Shown: positions 1-63,332 of the stretch, one piece after another
Layout: every line of letters begins with the position of its first letter
Position numbering within the stretch: position 1 is the stretch's first letter
Assembly: GCF_010993745.1 (NCBI RefSeq)
Contig: NZ_WOTN01000001.1
Coordinates: forward strand, 2,173,235 to 2,237,234
Length of the DNA stretch: 64,000 bases
Direction of reading: 5' to 3'
Source: Fodinicola acaciae
GTDB taxonomy: Bacteria > Actinomycetota > Actinomycetes > Mycobacteriales > HKI-0501
Made by a program: the position numbers and the translations under genes
The notes under the pieces: generated by a model
The model's input: only the letters and a program-made list of their open reading frames with translations
What the model was told of the DNA's origin: nothing
The model's database searches: none

Positions 1-4304
<4,304 letters not shown>

Positions 4305-6580: not shown

Positions 6581-7677
6581 CTCGCCACCTCCACGCTGAA
6601 GCGGTCCGGACGGACCGCCGCCGGCGGCTCGCCACCGGCCAGTACGTCCCGCACGATGTCGGTCGTCACCGGCGCGAGCAGGATGCCGTTGCGGTGATGG
6701 CCGGTGGCGACCAGCAGGCCGTCCTCCAGCCAGCCGATCACCGGCCGGTTGTCCGGCGTGCCCGGCCGCAATCCGGCGGAGCACTCGACCAGCTCGTACT
6801 CCCCGATCTCCGGCACGATCCGCTCGGCGTCGGCCAACAGATCGCGTACGCCGCCCACCGTCACCCGCGTGTCGAAGCCGGCCTCGTACTGCGTCGCGCC
6901 GAGCACCACACCGCCGTCATCGCGCGGCACCAGATACATCGCGCGGCCAGCGACCAGCGCGCGTACGGTCCGCCGCGGTGGACCGACAGTGCCAGGACGC
7001 GCGCGCAGCCGCAGGATCTCGCCTTTCACCGGTCGTACGACCCGCGACAACCGCTCGTGGAGCCGGCCGCTGTACGCACCGGCCGCCAGCACGACGGCAT
7101 CGGCGCGCAGGACACCGCCGCCGGCGAGGGTCACCTCGCCGCCGCGTACCGACGCGGCCGCTGTCCGTACGACCGGCACGTCACGGATGGCCAGGGACAA
7201 CGCGGTCATCAGCTGACGGTTGTCGACCGCGTGGTCGTGCGGTACGGACAACCCGCCGCGGACCGGACCGGCGACCGCCGGCTCCAGCTCGCGGACCTCG
7301 CGCGGCCGCAGCGACCGCACCTGGCGGCCGAGACCGTCCAGGAAGGCCGCCAGCCGGTCGAGCTCGGCGCGATCGGTGCCGTCCGCGGCGACCACGATCG
7401 TCCCGTCCGTCCGCAGACCGGCCGGCACGCCGGCGGCGGACGCAAGATCATCGGCGTATGCGGGCCAGGCATCGAGCGAGGCGGCGCCGAGCTCCAGCAA
7501 CGGCTCCTCGCCGTGCCACGCCTCGGTGACCGGCGCGAGCATCCCGCCAGCGACCGCCGACGCGCCGCTGCCGGCGGCAGGATCGACCAGTGTGACCTGC
7601 CATGACGCCGAGGCGCGCCAACAGATGGAGAGACCGACGACGCCACCGCCGACCACGATCAACGTACGAGCTGTCAC
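6577..7677 (-). CDS. thiO: Glycine oxidase ThiO
   Basis: FAD-dependent oxidase that converts glycine to the dehydroglycine used by ThiG. The 366-residue protein opens with the Rossmann motif VVGGGVVGLS (residues about 8-17) and has a C-terminal DAO-type region including ECSAGLRPGTPDNRPVIG and ATGHHRNGILLAPVT, typical of ThiO. The start is GTG at 7677; an in-frame TGA six bases upstream excludes a longer form. The ribosome site GGGAG forms part of the 3' strand of the TPP aptamer just upstream. First gene of thiOSG. Confidence 0.94.
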   Translation of the reverse strand: MTARTLIVVGGGVVGLSICWRASASWQVTLVDPAAGSGASAVAGGMLAPVTEAWHGEEPLLELGAASLDAWPAYADDLASAAGVPAGLRTDGTIVVAADGTDRAELDRLAAFLDGLGRQVRSLRPREVRELEPAVAGPVRGGLSVPHDHAVDNRQLMTALSLAIRDVPVVRTAAASVRGGEVTLAGGGVLRADAVVLAAGAYSGRLHERLSRVVRPVKGEILRLRARPGTVGPPRRTVRALVAGRAMYLVPRDDGGVVLGATQYEAGFDTRVTVGGVRDLLADAERIVPEIGEYELVECSAGLRPGTPDNRPVIGWLEDGLLVATGHHRNGILLAPVTTDIVRDVLAGGEPPAAVRPDRFSVEVAR

Positions 7678-7685
7678 CGATCACC

Positions 7686-7776
7686 ACGCTCCCTGCGCCG
7701 GCATGACCCGGATCAGGTTCGACGGTCGAAGCGGATCGCGCTTCCTCTCAGCCCGGCTTGCCCAGGCTCCCGTGCG
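7686..7776 (-). promoter_or_regulatory. TPP riboswitch (THI box) of thiOSG
   Basis: On the minus strand the conserved blocks occur in order: GGGAGCC (P1/P2 5' side), GGCTGAGAGG, then TCGAACCTGATCCGGGTCATGCCGGCGCAGGGAG. These are the hallmark CUGAGA and ACCUGAUCUGGGUAAUGCC-type segments of the thiamine pyrophosphate aptamer. It ends about ten bases before the GTG of thiO, so the terminal P1 strand contains the apparent Shine-Dalgarno. This suggests translational control by sequestration rather than a separate expression platform. Confidence 0.93.
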
Positions 7777-7820
7777 GACCAACTGCCATCCTAACCCGGA
7801 GACTCGCTACGGTCGGAACC

Positions 7821-8481: not shown

Positions 8482-10818
8482 GTGGACGCGGAAGGCCTGC
8501 GCCGGCTCGGTGAGGACGGGCTCGCCGAGCTGCTCCGCCGCCGGCCGGACGCCGCCGACCCGGCGCCGGACAGCCTGCTCGCACTGGCCAACCATCTCCA
8601 GCACCCCAACTCCGTCGTACGCGCGCTGCAGCGGCTCGACCTGCCGACGATCCAGGTCTGCGAAGCGCTCGCCGCGCTGGGCAGCGAACCGTCGGTCAAG
8701 GAGTTGGCGCGGTTGCTGGGGGTCAGTCCGCGCGACGACGACCTCCAGCGCTGTCTCAGCGTCCTTCGGGCATACGGGCTGCTGGACGAGGTGGCGGCGC
8801 AGCGCCATCTCTCAGTGGTCACCGACCACGGCGCGACGGTCGGCCGCGTACGGCTGGTCACCACGGCCGCGCTGGCCTGGGAGTCGCCGCTCGACCTCGG
8901 TCCCCCGATCGGCCCGTACCTGGCCGAGCTGACCGTCTCCGCCCTCGCCGGCATCCTCACCGCGCTCGGCCGCGACCGGCCGTCCCGCAAGCAGGACCTG
9001 ATCGACGCCGTCGTCGCCGCGCTGACCGACCACGACTTCGTCCGGCAGGTCGTCGACGAGGCGGACGAGGAGGTCGGCGCGCTACTGCACCGAATCTCGC
9101 GTACCGGCGAGGTGGTCGCTCCGCCGATGTTCGCCGAGCGACAGACGCCGGCGCAGTGGGCCCAGCAGCGTGGACTGCTGATCCCCAGCGACTGGTACTA
9201 CAACGCCCTGGTGATGCCGGCCGAGGTGATGCTCGCGTTGCGCGACGACGAGCACCACGCTCCGTTCCAGCCGGTGCCGCCGGAGGTAGCGCACGAGCCG
9301 GTCGACAGCGAGCGCGTCACCGCCGACGCGATGGCCAGCGTCGGCAGGCTGCTGCGCGTCGTCACCGCCTCGCTGGACCAGGCCGGCGTCAAGCCGATCC
9401 CAGTGCTGAAGAGCGGCCACATCGGCGTACGCGAGCTGCGCCGGATCGGCAAGGAGCACAGCGCCGATGAGCTGGAGGTGCACACCGCGCTGCGGCTCGC
9501 CGGATCGCTGGGGATCGCGTCGGTCGATGAGCGCGGCGTGTCGCCGACAGCGGACTACGACGCTTGGCGGGCGCAGCAGCCGGCCGAACAGATCGCCAGC
9601 CTGCTGGCCATCTGGTGGGAAGTGCCCGTCCCGCCGTCACGGTCCATCGCCAGGCGTCCCGAGCTCAGCGTGGCGCTGTTCCGCCAGCAGCTGATCAGGT
9701 CGGCGGCACCGTACGGCCGCGTCGACCTCGACTCGGTGATCGAGCACGCCCGCTGGTCGGCCGCGCTGGCCTGGCCAGCCGACGAGGACGGCCAGGACGG
9801 CTCCGAACACGAGGCCGCCGCGCATGCGTGCTGGCAGGAGGCGGAGTTCCTCGGCGTCGTCGGCGCCGGCGCGGTCAGTCCGATCGGCCACGCGCTGCTG
9901 GCCGGCGACGACCTGACCAAGGTGCTCGCCGGTGTCGGCGAGACCGAGCACTCCGTACGGCTGCAGAGCGATCTGACCGCGATCGTCGGCGGCACACCGA
10001 GCGCGGCACTGCGCAAGCTGCTCGACCTGGCCGCCGATCCGGAGGCGTCCGGCACCGCGTCGACATGGCGGTTTTCGCCCGCCAGCGTGCGCCGTGCCTT
10101 CGACGCCGGCTACACCGCCGAGCAGCTGCTCGCCGAGATCGAGGCGGTCGCCGCCGGCACGTTGCCGCAGCCGCTCGGCTACCTGATCCGCGACGTTGGC
10201 CGTACGTACGGACACATCCGCGCGATCAAGGTCGCCTGCTGCCTGCGGTCCGAGGACACCGCGCTGCTGGCGGAGGTGGCCGCGGACAAGCGGCTGCGCA
10301 AGCTCGGGCTGCGCTTGCTGGCGCCGACCGTACTGGCGAGTCCGAAGCCGCTCAAAGACACCATCGCTGCACTCCGCGCCGCCGGCTTCGCACCAGTCGC
10401 CGAGTCCGCCGACGGCGAGCCGGTCGTCGAGCGCCTGACGACACACCGCTCGCCACCGCGCCGCCGCGTCCAGTTGAAGCGCGTCGACTACGCCGCCGTC
10501 GCGCGCCAGCTCCTCGCCGGTGAGGACGGCGAACCTGAGCTGCCACAGCCAAGCCCCACCGCCGAACAGATCGCGCCACTGGTGCCGCAACTCAGCGCCC
10601 CGGAGCTGGTCACGCTGGCCTTCGCTATCGACGATGAGCGGCCGGTGATGATCGAATATCGGTCACAGAGCGGGAAACGTAGCCGTCGGGTGATCGAGCA
10701 GCTCGATCTCGACGGTCCGGTGCTGCATGCGTGGTGTCGTTTGCGGCAGGACGATCGCGCTTTTCATCTCGGTCGGATTTTGTCGGTGTCGCCGGTGTCG
10801 GAGGAAGAGGACGACTGA
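8482..10818 (+). CDS. Helicase-associated / WYL-domain protein
   Basis: A 778-residue actinobacterial protein of the helicase-associated (Helicase_C_3-like) type. The central alpha-helical region is rich in short winged-helix-like segments. The C-terminus (about 700-775) has a WYL-like fold: MIEYRSQSGKRSRRVIEQLDL, then HAWCRLRQDDRAFHLGRI. In many actinobacteria this family precedes a gene for an XPB-type DNA repair helicase; none follows here, only repeats. GTG start at 8482 with AAAGGTGAG inside the thiE end. A role in DNA repair or nucleic-acid sensing is an inference from family context. Confidence 0.82.
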   Translation: MDAEGLRRLGEDGLAELLRRRPDAADPAPDSLLALANHLQHPNSVVRALQRLDLPTIQVCEALAALGSEPSVKELARLLGVSPRDDDLQRCLSVLRAYGLLDEVAAQRHLSVVTDHGATVGRVRLVTTAALAWESPLDLGPPIGPYLAELTVSALAGILTALGRDRPSRKQDLIDAVVAALTDHDFVRQVVDEADEEVGALLHRISRTGEVVAPPMFAERQTPAQWAQQRGLLIPSDWYYNALVMPAEVMLALRDDEHHAPFQPVPPEVAHEPVDSERVTADAMASVGRLLRVVTASLDQAGVKPIPVLKSGHIGVRELRRIGKEHSADELEVHTALRLAGSLGIASVDERGVSPTADYDAWRAQQPAEQIASLLAIWWEVPVPPSRSIARRPELSVALFRQQLIRSAAPYGRVDLDSVIEHARWSAALAWPADEDGQDGSEHEAAAHACWQEAEFLGVVGAGAVSPIGHALLAGDDLTKVLAGVGETEHSVRLQSDLTAIVGGTPSAALRKLLDLAADPEASGTASTWRFSPASVRRAFDAGYTAEQLLAEIEAVAAGTLPQPLGYLIRDVGRTYGHIRAIKVACCLRSEDTALLAEVAADKRLRKLGLRLLAPTVLASPKPLKDTIAALRAAGFAPVAESADGEPVVERLTTHRSPPRRRVQLKRVDYAAVARQLLAGEDGEPELPQPSPTAEQIAPLVPQLSAPELVTLAFAIDDERPVMIEYRSQSGKRSRRVIEQLDLDGPVLHAWCRLRQDDRAFHLGRILSVSPVSEEEDD

Positions 10819-10829
10819 GTGTCCGGGGA

Positions 10830-11205
10830 TCGTTGGAGTTTCCGGTTGTTGCGTCGGTGAGGGGTGGTTGGGGTTTCAGGTTGCTGCGTTGGCGAGGGGG
10901 TTGGGTTTTCTGATTGTTGCGTTGGGTGGGTGGTTGCGTTTTATGTTTTGTTGCGTCAGGGGGTGGTTGGTTTTTTCGCCTGCGCGGCGGGCGCGCCTAC
11001 GCGGCGAGCGACCTCAAGGGAGGGGGCGCGTGGCCGCCAATCATGTGCATTGGGGATGCGGGCGGCGGTTGCGGGCGGGGCTGGGTTCTCCAGGCTTGCT
11101 CGGTCACGTATGGGAAGCAACCCGTCGGGATGGACGCTAAACGATCGTGCCGTAGCGGCTGACTGCGTAATACTTGTTTAACAAGACATCAAAACCGACA
11201 TCTGT
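10830..11205 (+). repeat. Dispersed repeat A, copy 1 (G/T-rich array plus GC core)
   Basis: Non-coding. It begins with about four degenerate 34-36 base units, each with GTTGCGT followed by GGGTGGTTGGG and a T-rich stretch. The conserved core at about 10977-11030 follows (CGCCTGCGCGGCGGGCG, then GCGACCTCAAGGGAGGGG), then a tail that includes GAAGCAACCCGTCGG and ends GACTGCGTAATACTTG. The same order is found at 20830-21270, and a shorter inverted copy at 11660-11790. Short open frames through it do not resemble known proteins. Strong G/T skew makes it stand out from flanking genes. Confidence 0.8.
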
Positions 11206-11430
11206 TGCAGCCGAGCAGCCACAACAGCATTATCAGCCTCGGTAGTCACACCCGTCACAGCCTCCGGAGATCACGGCGGCGTGAAAGCCTTGTTCCTTGC
11301 GTCCAACGCAAGTAACTCGACATTCATGCCATCCACGACCCTCACAAGCCGGACATTTAGCGCTCCATACGCCTTCGCATCCCACATACTGGACCCCCAC
11401 GCCACCCGCTGAGACGCCACGGCACCGCCG
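11206..11430. repeat. Dispersed repeat B, copy 1
   Basis: About 220 non-coding bases that align with 23620-23830. Shared words, in order, are ACAACAGCATT, GTCACACC, GTCACAG, GTGAAAGCC, CTTGC, GACATTTAGCG, CCCACATA and GACGCCACGGCA. It contains the small palindrome CTTGCGTCCAACGCAAG (11296-11312), seen again in a hairpin at 63287. On the minus strand both copies can be read with similar peptide fragments (ALDAR.KAFT, AVTGVT.EA.NAVV), but this copy has stops, so it is not a functional gene. It may be the relic of one. Confidence 0.7.
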
Positions 11431-11448
11431 GCGCCCCAGCCACACTCC

Positions 11449-11611
11449 TGGTCCGGTTTGTCCGTTCTCCCCCGTCGGCGAGCTCTGCTTGAGCACATTC
11501 TGGCCGGGCCTGCCGCGTACGCAAACCAACCACGCACGAAAGCTCGGCAGGCCCGGCCAGAATGTGCTCATCCTCCGGACGCCGGCGGGGGAGAACGGAC
11601 AAACCGGACCA
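11449..11611. repeat. Long inverted repeat (about 66 bp arms)
   Basis: Left arm 11449-11515 and right arm 11543-11611 are reverse complements with a few mismatches. Matching ends are GGTCCGGTTTGTCCGTTCTC on the left and GAGAACGGACAAACCGGACC on the right. Inner parts are CATTCTGGCCGGGCCTGCCG and CGGCAGGCCCGGCCAGAATG. The loop is about 27 bases. It lies between two convergent genes. It could be a MITE-like element or a strong bidirectional terminator; no T-run or target duplication is evident. Confidence 0.85.
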
Positions 11612-11659
11612 CACCACAAACACAACCGCACCCGCCGCACCCAACCCAACCAACAACGA

Positions 11660-11790
11660 AACCCCGCGCGCCCCTCCCCTTGAGGTCGCCCTCCGCGCAG
11701 GAGCGCCCGCCGCGAAGGCGCCACCACCCCCAAACGCAACAAAAATGAGAACCCAACCACCCCAAACGCAACAATCATGAAAACCAGCCG
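11660..11790 (-). repeat. Dispersed repeat A, copy 3 (short, inverted)
   Basis: On the minus strand this reads as two G/T-rich units (GTTGCGTTTGGGGTGGTTGGG and GTTGCGTTTGGGGGTGGTGG), then the core GGGCGCTCCTGCGCGGAGGG and CGACCTCAAGGGGAGGGG. It matches copies 1 and 2 but lacks their tail. It faces copy 1 across the hairpin at 11449-11611, so the intergenic block as a whole is roughly symmetrical. It ends about 25 bases from the argH stop codon. Confidence 0.78.
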
Positions 11791-11813
11791 CTCCTAGGAC
11801 ACTCCTAGACCGA

Positions 11814-15853
<4,040 letters not shown>

Positions 15854-20809: not shown

Positions 20810-21276
20810 GGAGGGGCGGGTGGGTGGTTGTCCGTGGTGCCGGGGGAGCTGGGTCGGGGTGGCGGTAGGTGGTGCTTCGTGTGCTGTTGCGTTGGAGAGG
20901 GTGGTTGGGCGTTTCCCTCGGGGCGTTGGAGAGGTGGTTGCGTCTCTTGTTGGTCGCGCCAGGGGGTGGTTGGGCTTTCTGGTTGTTGCGTCAGGGGGTG
21001 GTTGGGTTTCGCCTGCGCGGCAGGCGCTCCTGCGCGGAGGGCGACCTCAAGGGAGGGGGGCGCGGGAACGCCAATCGGTGTGCATGGGGGTGCGGGCGGC
21101 GGTTGCGTGCGGGGTCGGGTTTTCCGAGCTTGCGCGGTCACGTGTTGGAAGCAACCCGTCGGTATGGACGCCGATCACGGGTGCTGGTGTGGCTCATGTG
21201 GCTGACAATGCAGGTGAGGCGGGCTGACTGCGTAATACTTGGCCAACAAGGCATTAAAACGGACATTTTGTCGCGC
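20810..21276 (+). repeat. Dispersed repeat A, copy 2
   Basis: Fills most of the roughly 540-base gap between the SARP start and the mntH stop. Degenerate G/T-rich units (TTGCGT, then GGGTGGTTGGG) at about 20880-21010 are followed by the core CGCCTGCGCGGCAGGCGCTC and GCGACCTCAAGGGAGGGG (about 21013-21060). The tail contains GAAGCAACCCGTCGGTATGG and CTGACTGCGTAATACTTG (21229-21246). Order and sequence match copy 1 at 10830. No gene is seen. The last part doubles as the mntH 3' untranslated region. Confidence 0.8.
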
Positions 21277-22509
21277 TTAGGCGGTGATCGTGAGATAGAC
21301 CAGGGCTACGTTGAGGACGATCACCGCGCCGGCGATGGTGCTGGCGATGATCGTCGTCGCGGGGGCGTTTACCGACTCTCCCATGATGCTGCGCCGGGCC
21401 GTGAGTGCGACCAGCGGGATCATGACGAACGGGATGCCGAAGGACAGCACCACCTGCGACAGGATAAGGGCCCAGGTTGGATCCACGCCGAGGGCGAGGA
21501 TGGCGACCGCCGGCATCAGGGTGATCACCCGGCGTACGAGCAGTGGGATGCGGCGTTTGAGCAGGCCCTGCATGATCACCGCGCCGGCGTAACAACCGAC
21601 CGAGGTGGAGGCGAGGCCTGAGGCGAGCAGGCCGATCGCGAACAGCAGTGCGACTGGCGCGCCGAGCACGTCGCCGATGGCGGTGTGCGCGCCTTGCAGC
21701 GTGTCGACGCCAGGCCGGCCGCGCAGCGCGGAGGCGGCGAGCAGGACCATGGCGAGGTTGACGGTGCCGGCCAGCAGCATCGCCAGTACGACGTCGTACC
21801 TGGTGGCGGTCAGCATCCGTTTGCGGTCGTCGCCGGCCACCATGCCGTGCCGGTCGCGCGCGAGCGCCGAGTGCAGGTAGATCGCGTGCGGCATCACGGT
21901 CGCGCCGAGCATGCCGGCGGCCAGCAGCACGCTCTCGGTGCCGGCGAAGCCCGGCAGCAGGCCGCCGGCGACGCCGGCCGGCGACGGCGGCGACCAGAAC
22001 AGGCCGGCCACGAAGCCGACCGCGATCACCAGCAGCAGGCCGGAGATCAGCCGCTCGAACGGCCGCTGACCGCGCCGGTTCTGTACGGCCAGCAGTCCCA
22101 GCGACACCACGCCGGTGACCAGTCCGCCGACCAGCATCGGCAGGCCGAAGAGAAGGTTGAGCGCGATCGCGCCGCCGATCACCTCGGCCAGGTCGGTCGC
22201 CGCCGCAACCACCTCGGCCTGCAGCCAGTACGCCAGCCGGGTCGGCCGGCGCATCCGGTCGCGTACCACCTCCGGCAGTGACCGACCGGTGGCCAGGCCC
22301 AGCTTGGCGGACAGATACTGCAGCAGGCCGGCCATCAGGTTGGCCACCACGATCACCCAGACGAGCAGATAGCCATAGCGCGCGCCGGCCGACACGTTGG
22401 TCGCGACGTTGCCGGGGTCGACGTACGCGACGGCGGCCACGAAAGCCGGGCCGAGCAGCGCCGAGGACGCGACCAGTCGCACCATCCGCGGCTTGACCCT
22501 CTGCAGCAT
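21277..22509 (-). CDS. mntH: Nramp family divalent metal transporter (MntH-like)
   Basis: Proton-coupled importer of Mn2+ or related divalent metals in the cytoplasmic membrane. The 410 residues have about eleven hydrophobic spans, the TM1 metal-binding motif DPGN (31-34) and the TM6 motif MPHAIYLHS (about 205-213), both conserved in Nramp proteins. No MntR gene or clear metal-regulator box was noticed nearby. The ATG at 22509 fits the usual family N-terminus. Confidence 0.92.
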   Translation of the reverse strand: MLQRVKPRMVRLVASSALLGPAFVAAVAYVDPGNVATNVSAGARYGYLLVWVIVVANLMAGLLQYLSAKLGLATGRSLPEVVRDRMRRPTRLAYWLQAEVVAAATDLAEVIGGAIALNLLFGLPMLVGGLVTGVVSLGLLAVQNRRGQRPFERLISGLLLVIAVGFVAGLFWSPPSPAGVAGGLLPGFAGTESVLLAAGMLGATVMPHAIYLHSALARDRHGMVAGDDRKRMLTATRYDVVLAMLLAGTVNLAMVLLAASALRGRPGVDTLQGAHTAIGDVLGAPVALLFAIGLLASGLASTSVGCYAGAVIMQGLLKRRIPLLVRRVITLMPAVAILALGVDPTWALILSQVVLSFGIPFVMIPLVALTARRSIMGESVNAPATTIIASTIAGAVIVLNVALVYLTITA

Positions 22510-23604: not shown

Positions 23605-23835
23605 GCGGACGAGCAAGTCGACCCACCTGAGTCACAACAGCATTGGCGGCCTCAAGAGTCACACCAGTCACAGCGCATGGCGGCCACGTGGCAGTGAAAG
23701 CCGTTTTTCTTGCATCTAGCGCCCCATGAACCACGCAAGCCAGACATTTAGCGTTACAGATCCTTGTCCGTCCCACATAGTGGCCCGTCTCGCCATCTAC
23801 CAGGACGCCACGGCATGCCCGACACCGCGCAATTG
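23605..23835. repeat. Dispersed repeat B, copy 2
   Basis: About 230 non-coding bases after the methyltransferase, matching 11206-11430. Shared words in order are CACAACAGCATT, GTCACACC, GTCACAG, GTGAAAGCC, CTTGC, GACATTTAGCG, CCCACATA and GACGCCACGGCA. On the minus strand this copy stays open longer than copy 1 (peptide containing VHGALDARKTAFTATWPP), but the frame continues into antisense of the methyltransferase, so it is not called a gene. Confidence 0.7.
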
Positions 23836-50479: not shown

Positions 50480-50566
50480 CCTGCCTCCCGGCCAGACGAT
50501 GGTCACCGGGGTTGATCAGGCAGGTGCCAGAAAGCGGCACCACAGGCAGGCCTGTGGCGTCGCGCG
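50480..50566 (-). promoter_or_regulatory. Expression-platform hairpins between FMN aptamer and ribE
   Basis: On the minus strand, CCACAGGCCTGCCTGTGG (50541-50558) and GTGCC...GGCAC (50524-50540) form two consecutive hairpins directly after the aptamer. There is no T-run after them, so control may act on translation or by Rho; the ribE ribosome site is 40 bases further on. Confidence 0.45.
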
Positions 50567-50703
50567 CATCCTCCCATCCGGACTTTCACCGTCGGTCCCG
50601 GACTCTCACCAGGTCAACCGGCCGCTGGCTGCGGACGGGTCGCGGACTGAGGGCCGTCAAGCCCATCACCGCCGGTTCGGAATTACACCGACCCCGGAGC
50701 GCG
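50567..50703 (-). promoter_or_regulatory. FMN riboswitch (RFN element)
   Basis: The minus strand shows the RFN blocks in order: CTCCGGGGTCGGTGTAATTC, CGAACCGGCGGTGATGGG, AGTCCGCGACC, then GGTTGACCTGGTGAGAGTCC and CGACGGTGAAAGTCCGGATG, and GGGAGGAT at the 3' side. These are diagnostic of the FMN aptamer. It controls ribE-ribBA-ribH. A divergent-looking palindrome GTTGACG/CGTCAAAC at 50817-50837 lies further upstream, next to the hydrolase stop. The rest of the stretch to 50840 holds only the presumed promoter. Confidence 0.95.
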
Positions 50704-50840
50704 TACTGCTTCTTACCTGATCGATTGTCGCACGCGCCGTCGCCGCCGGCGCCGGACGTGACCCGCTCCACACCGGCCGGCTGGCCGTCCGTCCACCGGG
50801 CTGCGACCTCCTGGCTGTTGACGCTTCTACGTCAAACTCC

Positions 50841-63275: not shown

Positions 63276-63286
63276 GAAGTTCGCAT

Positions 63287-63323
63287 GGCCACCATGCTTG
63301 CGTTGGACGCAAGCATGGTGGCC
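63287..63323. terminator. Perfect 16-bp hairpin between convergent genes
   Basis: GGCCACCATGCTTGCG (63287-63302) and CGCAAGCATGGTGGCC (63308-63323) pair perfectly around TTGGA. It lies 11 bases after the secreted-protein stop and nine bases from the permease stop on the other strand. No T-run. Probably a bidirectional terminator. The centre TTGCGTTGGACGCAA is also found in repeat B copy 1 on the minus strand. Confidence 0.75.
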
Positions 63324-63332
63324 GTGCGGCCG

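Follow-up and report, generated by a model that had tools for sequence, protein, structure and literature searches.

Two foldback elements in the window

The window analyzed here, a 64-kb stretch of contig 1 of the Fodinicola acaciae genome (C1:2173235-2237234), begins with large- and small-subunit rRNA genes on the minus strand (1-4304) and carries, also on the minus strand, FMN and TPP riboswitch aptamers that score above gathering (50562-50706 and 7673-7783, respectively). Between two convergent genes, bounded on one side by the stop codon of the gene 8482-10818 and on the other by that of the next gene, at 11814, lies a foldback element of ~0.95 kb (element 1) that belongs to a family denoted here repeat A. 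On the plus strand, a left G/T array of approximately four units of 33-35 bp (10819-10965), which becomes less distinct toward the end of the upstream gene (stop at 10818), is followed by the body of the element from left core to right core (10966-11731), a complete copy running left (L) to right (R) and matching positions 2-883 of the nhmmer model of the family. The left core (10977-11033, plus strand), which is the GC-rich 'palindromic core' of the preliminary description, contains GACCTCAAGGGAGGGG, and the two arms meet at the central palindrome CTTGTTTAACAAG (11173-11185). The right side comprises a coding-like right-arm module on the minus strand (11181-11387), whose frame is interrupted in element 1 by a single TGA, a hairpin (11449-11611) with 67-nt arms that are 88% complementary and a fragment of a C/A array unit in the loop, the inverted right core on the minus strand (11664-11720), which pairs with the left core (86% complementary over 57 nt, 11664-11720 against 10977-11033), and a right C/A array (11732-11813), in which the G/T units are on the minus strand and which reaches the next gene's stop at 11814. 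The single-stranded DNA of element 1 (10965-11735) has a predicted folding energy of -231.9 kcal/mol, compared to -149.8 +/- 5.1 for 20 shuffled sequences (z = -16).

Element 2 consists of a left G/T array (20810-21005, plus strand) and a left half only (21006-21272, plus strand; model positions 9-423), with left core, left arm and central palindrome; it has no right core and ends 5 bases short of the predicted gene end at 21277. A degenerate right-arm fragment of the family, detected as an nhmmer profile match, is located at 23630-23822 on the plus strand (C1:2196864-2197056). The features that the preliminary description had recognized are all present where it placed them: the G/T units are spaced by 32-35 bp (10827-10990 and 20899-21023), the GC-rich cores of the two elements (10974-11026 and 21007-21059) are 91% identical over 53 nt, and the tail GACTGCGTAATACTTG is shared (11161-11176 in element 1 and 21226-21241 in element 2). 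The same description counted three copies; the underlying sequence similarity is real, but its inverted copy at 11660-11790 is the right end of element 1, so there are two elements, of which element 1 possesses both ends. That description did not include the foldback architecture, the replication polarity or the origin gap presented below.

Family size, anatomy and genomic placement

In the genome of 8,860,993 bases (4 contigs, one of 2,350,191 bases), the left core GACCTCAAGGGAGGGG occurs 69 times exactly, whereas its reversed control is absent, and GCGTAATACTTG occurs 71 times exactly and 120 times with at most one mismatch, against 4 for the control, so that the repeat cannot be attributed to chance. 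The proposal of a dispersed intergenic repeat family, which by the preliminary description would be refuted by a lack of further genomic copies, is borne out by the genome-wide search. A single local duplication was set aside because copies are present on all four contigs and the similarity between right arms is unrelated to their chromosomal distance (Mantel r -0.005).

The copies were analyzed in 79 stretches fetched around pattern or BLAST matches which, together with the window, make 80 stretches (875,530 bases), along with 40 control stretches (800,000 bases). A profile built from 37 complete elements detected 109 elements and fragments, of which the 103 that do not fall in control stretches were retained; this set of 103 is a lower bound, six more A-like loci having surfaced later. 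By model coordinates, 36 of the 103 are complete. All p values given here assume that copies are independent. The left core differs from the right core GACCTCAAGGGGAGGG, and inverted pairs of GACCTCAAGGGAGGGG and GACCTCAAGGGGAGGG within 1.5 kb of each other were found at 37 places in the 80 stretches, with core-to-core spacings of 356-843 bp; these 37 complete pairs constitute terminal inverted repeats, as in MITEs, and the long inverted ends composed of tandem units are of the foldback type. The order of parts is G/T array (units of ~33 bp), core, left arm, central palindrome, right arm, inverted core and C/A array. The elements are mosaic: copies differ in the combination of left hairpin, right hairpin and left-arm segments that they contain, and some left-half copies stop 30-55 bases past the start of the center, at a predicted stop codon (e.g., C1 136023, C1 1883795, C1 1898274 and C3 894520).

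The two arms are diverged inverted duplicates of each other, the consensus of 17 left arms agreeing with that of 30 of the 71 right arms at 105 of 194 positions, in collinear pieces with E values of 2e-7 and 3e-5. Fragments of array units were seen by direct inspection in the loops of the long hairpins. The tip of the right hairpin, which few copies have, varies blockwise among copies yet stays paired (195 of 196 cells are Watson-Crick); hairpin-templated copying could produce such blockwise sameness of the stems. Across 261 stem pairs of the 37 elements, changes to G-U account for 106 cells (57 pairs) and changes to A-C for 128 cells (69 pairs). Selection at the RNA level on one strand should make one of these two kinds rarer; because there is no excess of G-U, the stems are read as DNA features.

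Array units are spaced by 32-34 bp family-wide, and all 194 array-unit matches fall within 700 bp of an element. The identity of units declines outward, from 0.74 to background (0.39) over approximately nine units in the left array and from 0.64 to background over approximately six in the right one, and the outer ends fade into unique sequence, such that no target-site duplication or exact empty site could be made out. Quadruplex formation, which the preliminary description considered possible for the G-runs, finds no support as a built-in property of the arrays, since canonical motifs with four G3 tracts are rarer than expected under Markov resampling (7 of 79 left arrays vs 12.8 expected, and 1 of 44 right arrays vs 5.5). 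The weaker two-tetrad motifs, which G/T-rich sequence readily yields, are present in 77 of 79 left and 38 of 44 right arrays.

On the strand read R to L, the right arms appear coding-like, with an omega of ~0.66 compared to 0.78-1.48 in the five other frames, an estimate from the 66 of 109 rows that were usable and in which changes are shared by descent. The frame encompasses 69 residues (..GALNVRLVRFADGMNVELLALDARNKAFTP..) and is intact in 17 of the 66 copies; a related frame in the left arms converges with it, tail to tail, and the module of most class-B relatives (see below) contains an in-frame TGA. The right-arm module produced no match in Pfam or NCBIfam and matched PHROG 15547 only at E 0.04, the best PHROG for the left-arm frame being 6603 at E 0.11. 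A tblastn search with the module yielded no match in phages or plasmids and none that was confirmed in viral contigs, and the search of 396 other genomes of the order gave one weak match of 34 residues (E 0.005). We hold the module for a relic of a coding sequence, any function being hypothetical.

All 103 copies reside in intergenic space or at its edge; seven overlap predicted genes, by 1-31 bp. Genes were predicted with a purpose-built codon model, on which all gene-based counts rest. The R side faces a gene 3' end in 76 of the 103 copies (p = 1.4e-6), compared to 59 of 103 for the L side (p = 0.17), and 41 of the 103 lie in convergent spacers, compared to 113 of 640 gene pairs in the control stretches (p = 1.5e-6).

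Replication polarity, the origin gap and relatives with other ends

The dnaA gene is located on contig 4 (596,668), and a single dif-like site, with one mismatch to what we take to be the dif pattern, on contig 1 (1,302,253). In the sampled stretches, GC skew is positive on contig 1 before the dif-like site and on contig 2, and negative on contig 1 after this site and on contig 3, except for one slightly positive bin. With the terminus inside contig 1 and the origin inside contig 4, these signs fix the order of contigs and yield replichores of 4.47 and 4.39 Mb, and the minus-strand position of the rRNA genes in the window is consistent with this order. Of the three contig-4 samples taken to the left of dnaA, two (at 0.25 and 0.45 Mb) have a positive skew, contrary to the negative sign expected there; the actual origin could be displaced from dnaA by as much as ~0.5 Mb, which would leave the fork direction of the counted copies unchanged and could shift the distances to the origin.

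The L-to-R direction of the element opposes the replication fork in 81 of the 103 copies (p = 4e-9). This bias is present on each replichore (42 of 53 and 39 of 50 copies), among the complete copies (32 of 36) and among the exact cores (57 of 69; p = 3.7e-8 compared to an even split). Of 1443 predicted genes in these stretches, 831 are co-oriented with the fork, a bias that is exceeded by that of the cores (p = 1.4e-5). Within convergent spacers, 30 of 41 copies are directed against the fork (p = 0.004), and this bias is not caused by gene direction because the flanking genes there give none. The region within 1.58 Mb of dnaA, 36% of the genome, holds none of the 69 exact cores (p = 6e-14 if the cores are independent and uniform); contig 4 as a whole is free of them (p = 6e-6, whatever the order of the contigs), as are the 0.24 Mb on either side of the dif-like site. 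When all 103 copies are considered, 2 lie within 1.5 Mb of dnaA, or 3 of 109 including the six later A-like loci. One A-like copy, L208 (C3:1689695), is an exception to both rules, being located 0.79 Mb from dnaA in the minority orientation.

A profile of the right-arm module matched at least 150 places in the genome (150 of the 366 candidates were scored). Among 40 further loci found in this way, 15 have ends of a second kind (class B), CGCATGGCCACCATGCG and/or CTTGAGTTTTAACCTCTGGGTTGG, several have ends of a third kind, GATCTATTCCAAGG, six resemble class A, the ends of repeat A proper, and the remainder are unclassed. Within 1.5 Mb of dnaA lie 12 of the 34 non-A loci compared to 3 of the 109 class-A loci (p = 1.6e-6); since the non-A relatives lack the origin gap, the gap goes with the class-A ends. 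The module follows the fork in 85 of the 109 class-A loci, against 21 of the 34 non-A loci (p = 0.07) and 6 of the 15 loci with class-B ends (p = 0.004), so the contrast in orientation holds for class-B ends and is weaker across all non-A loci. Only a few bases beyond an apparent stop codon, the window contains a 48-bp palindrome (63281-63328), formed by a back-to-back pair of class-B ends (CGCATGGCCACCATGC..GCATGGTGGCCGTGCG), that resembles a solo terminus of this second class of elements. At loci L198, L199 and L215, and in part at L184 and L202, an end of the third kind, CTAGATGATCTATTCCAAGG, flanks the same inner module in inverted orientation; at L199, the third-kind element adjoins one whose ends are GGTCTGTTTCGAAGTCC; the sequence at both junctions is CTAG, often a stop codon in the G+C-rich F. 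acaciae genome.

Lineage distribution, proposed mode of spread and alternatives

Among the right arms of 66 copies, the mean divergence is 17% (range 1.7-32%) and the nearest-neighbor median 10.4%. The closest pair (1.7%) shares a block of 97% identity that ends at an array-unit boundary, whereas the outer arrays differ, and in a second pair, compared by eye, the right half is nearly identical and the left half quite different. Both pairs look, from the distribution of the differences, like conversion between resident copies, and no sign of recent insertion is visible among the copies compared, the closest pair reading as conversion. Right-arm divergence is 0.130 in the minority-orientation copies (n = 11) and 0.104 in the others (n = 55; p = 0.14); the minority copies are thus not younger, as expected from an insertion bias and not from removal.

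The family is restricted to the F. acaciae lineage among the genomes searched. In the sister genome, the gene order around both sites of the window is conserved and the elements are absent, with unrelated sequence in their place and shorter spacers (552 vs 1040 bp at site 1 and 1803 vs 2342 bp at site 2). The searches of this genome, which is 74% complete, with DNA (32 candidates) and with the module gave nothing below E 0.4, and DNA and module searches of a second comparison genome (G002) detected no family member. An order-wide DNA search with two candidates per genome produced one match of 28-50 bases in each of 14 of 297 other genomes (E 4e-5 to 1e-3), taken for chance, and a scan of 84,980 species for the exact core gave three single matches, in unrelated MAGs. 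According to the genome report, the draft of F. acaciae GKU 173 consists of 4 contigs (8.86 Mbp, N50 2.35 Mbp) and that of F. feengrottensis HKI 0501 of 107 contigs (8.71 Mbp; ANI 77.92%), and no word starting with 'repeat' occurs in its main text (PMC7232338); our search of the open-access literature found no paper that describes the repeat A family.

On balance, we consider it somewhat probable that repeat A constitutes the terminal portion of a MITE-like foldback element, non-coding, non-autonomous and ~0.4-1.0 kb long, that expanded in the F. acaciae lineage and spread by replication-linked insertion and gene conversion. Under this scenario, a trans-acting enzyme would recognize the folded ends, and insertion would be linked to replication, most simply through entry of the DNA in folded, single-stranded form on one of the two strands at the fork, thereby fixing the orientation of the element; later conversion among copies would homogenize the core and arms and leave the outer array units to decay. 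The interior of the element includes no transposase gene, the 69-codon module being the only coding-like feature between the cores in the 37 pairs. No larger left-right end pair was found within 1.5 kb in the 80 stretches, and the intergenic lengths leave no room for an autonomous partner at the fetched copies. The Y1 transposase domain (PF01797), the one enzyme family sought, had 0 matches at E 0.001 in the F. acaciae genome, compared to 5 positive genomes among 14 controls. Contrary to the favored explanation, the origin gap of 1.58 Mb on each side is not predicted by a plain lagging-strand insertion bias. A tentative extension, which we regard as possible and somewhat unlikely, holds that the element functions as DNA only and that its repeat-array ends tie insertion to the moving fork, such that the element enters folded and single-stranded, in a fixed orientation and in the chromosome arms only, while the inner module is shared with elements whose other ends give another distribution; if so, the ends and not the cargo would set the fork-coupled targeting, and the enzyme would lie outside the Y1 family.

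The strongest alternative to the favored explanation is selection for a role in the chromosome arms. The copies could be chromosome-organizing or fork-interacting sites whose effect on replication, segregation or domain structure would maintain a single orientation and keep the origin and terminus regions free of them. The polarity on both replichores, the absence of exact cores around dnaA and the dif-like site, and the lack of an origin gap in the relatives with other ends all agree with such sites; yet the family was not found in the sister species, many copies are truncated and those of the wrong polarity are not younger, so that we consider this role unlikely. Less likely still is that the arrays and cores serve as transcription terminators or insulators between genes, a role suggested by the adjacency of the R end to gene 3' ends and the enrichment in convergent spacers. 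Under this reading, outward transcripts would, like Rho sites, be rich in C and A and poor in G, and inward ones would be G/U-rich and followed by a hairpin. Origin-proximal genes, however, do without these elements, as do the corresponding gene ends at both window sites in the sister species, the wobble changes in the stems are symmetric, and the left side shows no preference for 3' ends. Transcription of the elements from R to L, and hence in the direction of the fork, as a family of large structured non-coding RNAs would account for the long, almost perfectly paired stems and for a polarity like that of transcribed genes, but appears highly improbable given that neither strand shows an excess of G-U, the stems differ among copies as blocks, and no Rfam family matches at the gathering threshold, the permissive matches (best E 9e-6) falling on the perfect hairpin with scores far under gathering.

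The foldback (FB) elements of Drosophila have long inverted ends that are composed of short tandem units and form hairpins. Repeat A, in contrast, is bacterial, its units are G/T-rich and its arrays lie outside the core; the likeness considered here is one of architecture. With MITEs, repeat A shares the non-coding nature, the inverted ends, the high copy number, the intergenic location and the lack of a transposase of its own; unlike MITEs, it combines arms of up to ~0.5 kb in one nested foldback with outer arrays of 33-bp units, lacks a defined target duplication and displays replication polarity and an origin gap. The REP/BIME sequences associated with RAYT are likewise intergenic palindromic units that form inverted pairs, exceed 100 copies and lie near gene 3' ends (PMC2817692), but the units of repeat A are ten times larger. 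Membership in the REP/RAYT group was set aside because the F. acaciae genome encodes no Y1 transposase domain. As a model of mechanism, the single-strand transposition of IS200/IS605 on the lagging-strand template, with folded subterminal hairpins and replication-linked orientation, comes close (PMC6006769); unlike these insertion sequences, repeat A has no TnpA (PF01797) in its genome, and its exact ends are undefined. Architecture imparting sequences (AIMS) share the strand polarity along the replichores and are motifs of 8 bp (PMC5993296), whereas repeat A elements are lineage-specific and ~1 kb long, with polarity measured here for the element only.

The presence in one genome of element classes with a common inner module and different ends provides a natural comparison. 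To our knowledge, few bacterial intergenic repeats combine a clear replication polarity with an origin gap. If insertion is coupled to the fork, the family would record past fork direction and offer a route to a new targeting enzyme; if selection is responsible, it would point to a lineage-specific role in the organization of the chromosome arms. With respect to annotation, caution is due because in part of the copies the arms read as small conserved 'proteins'.
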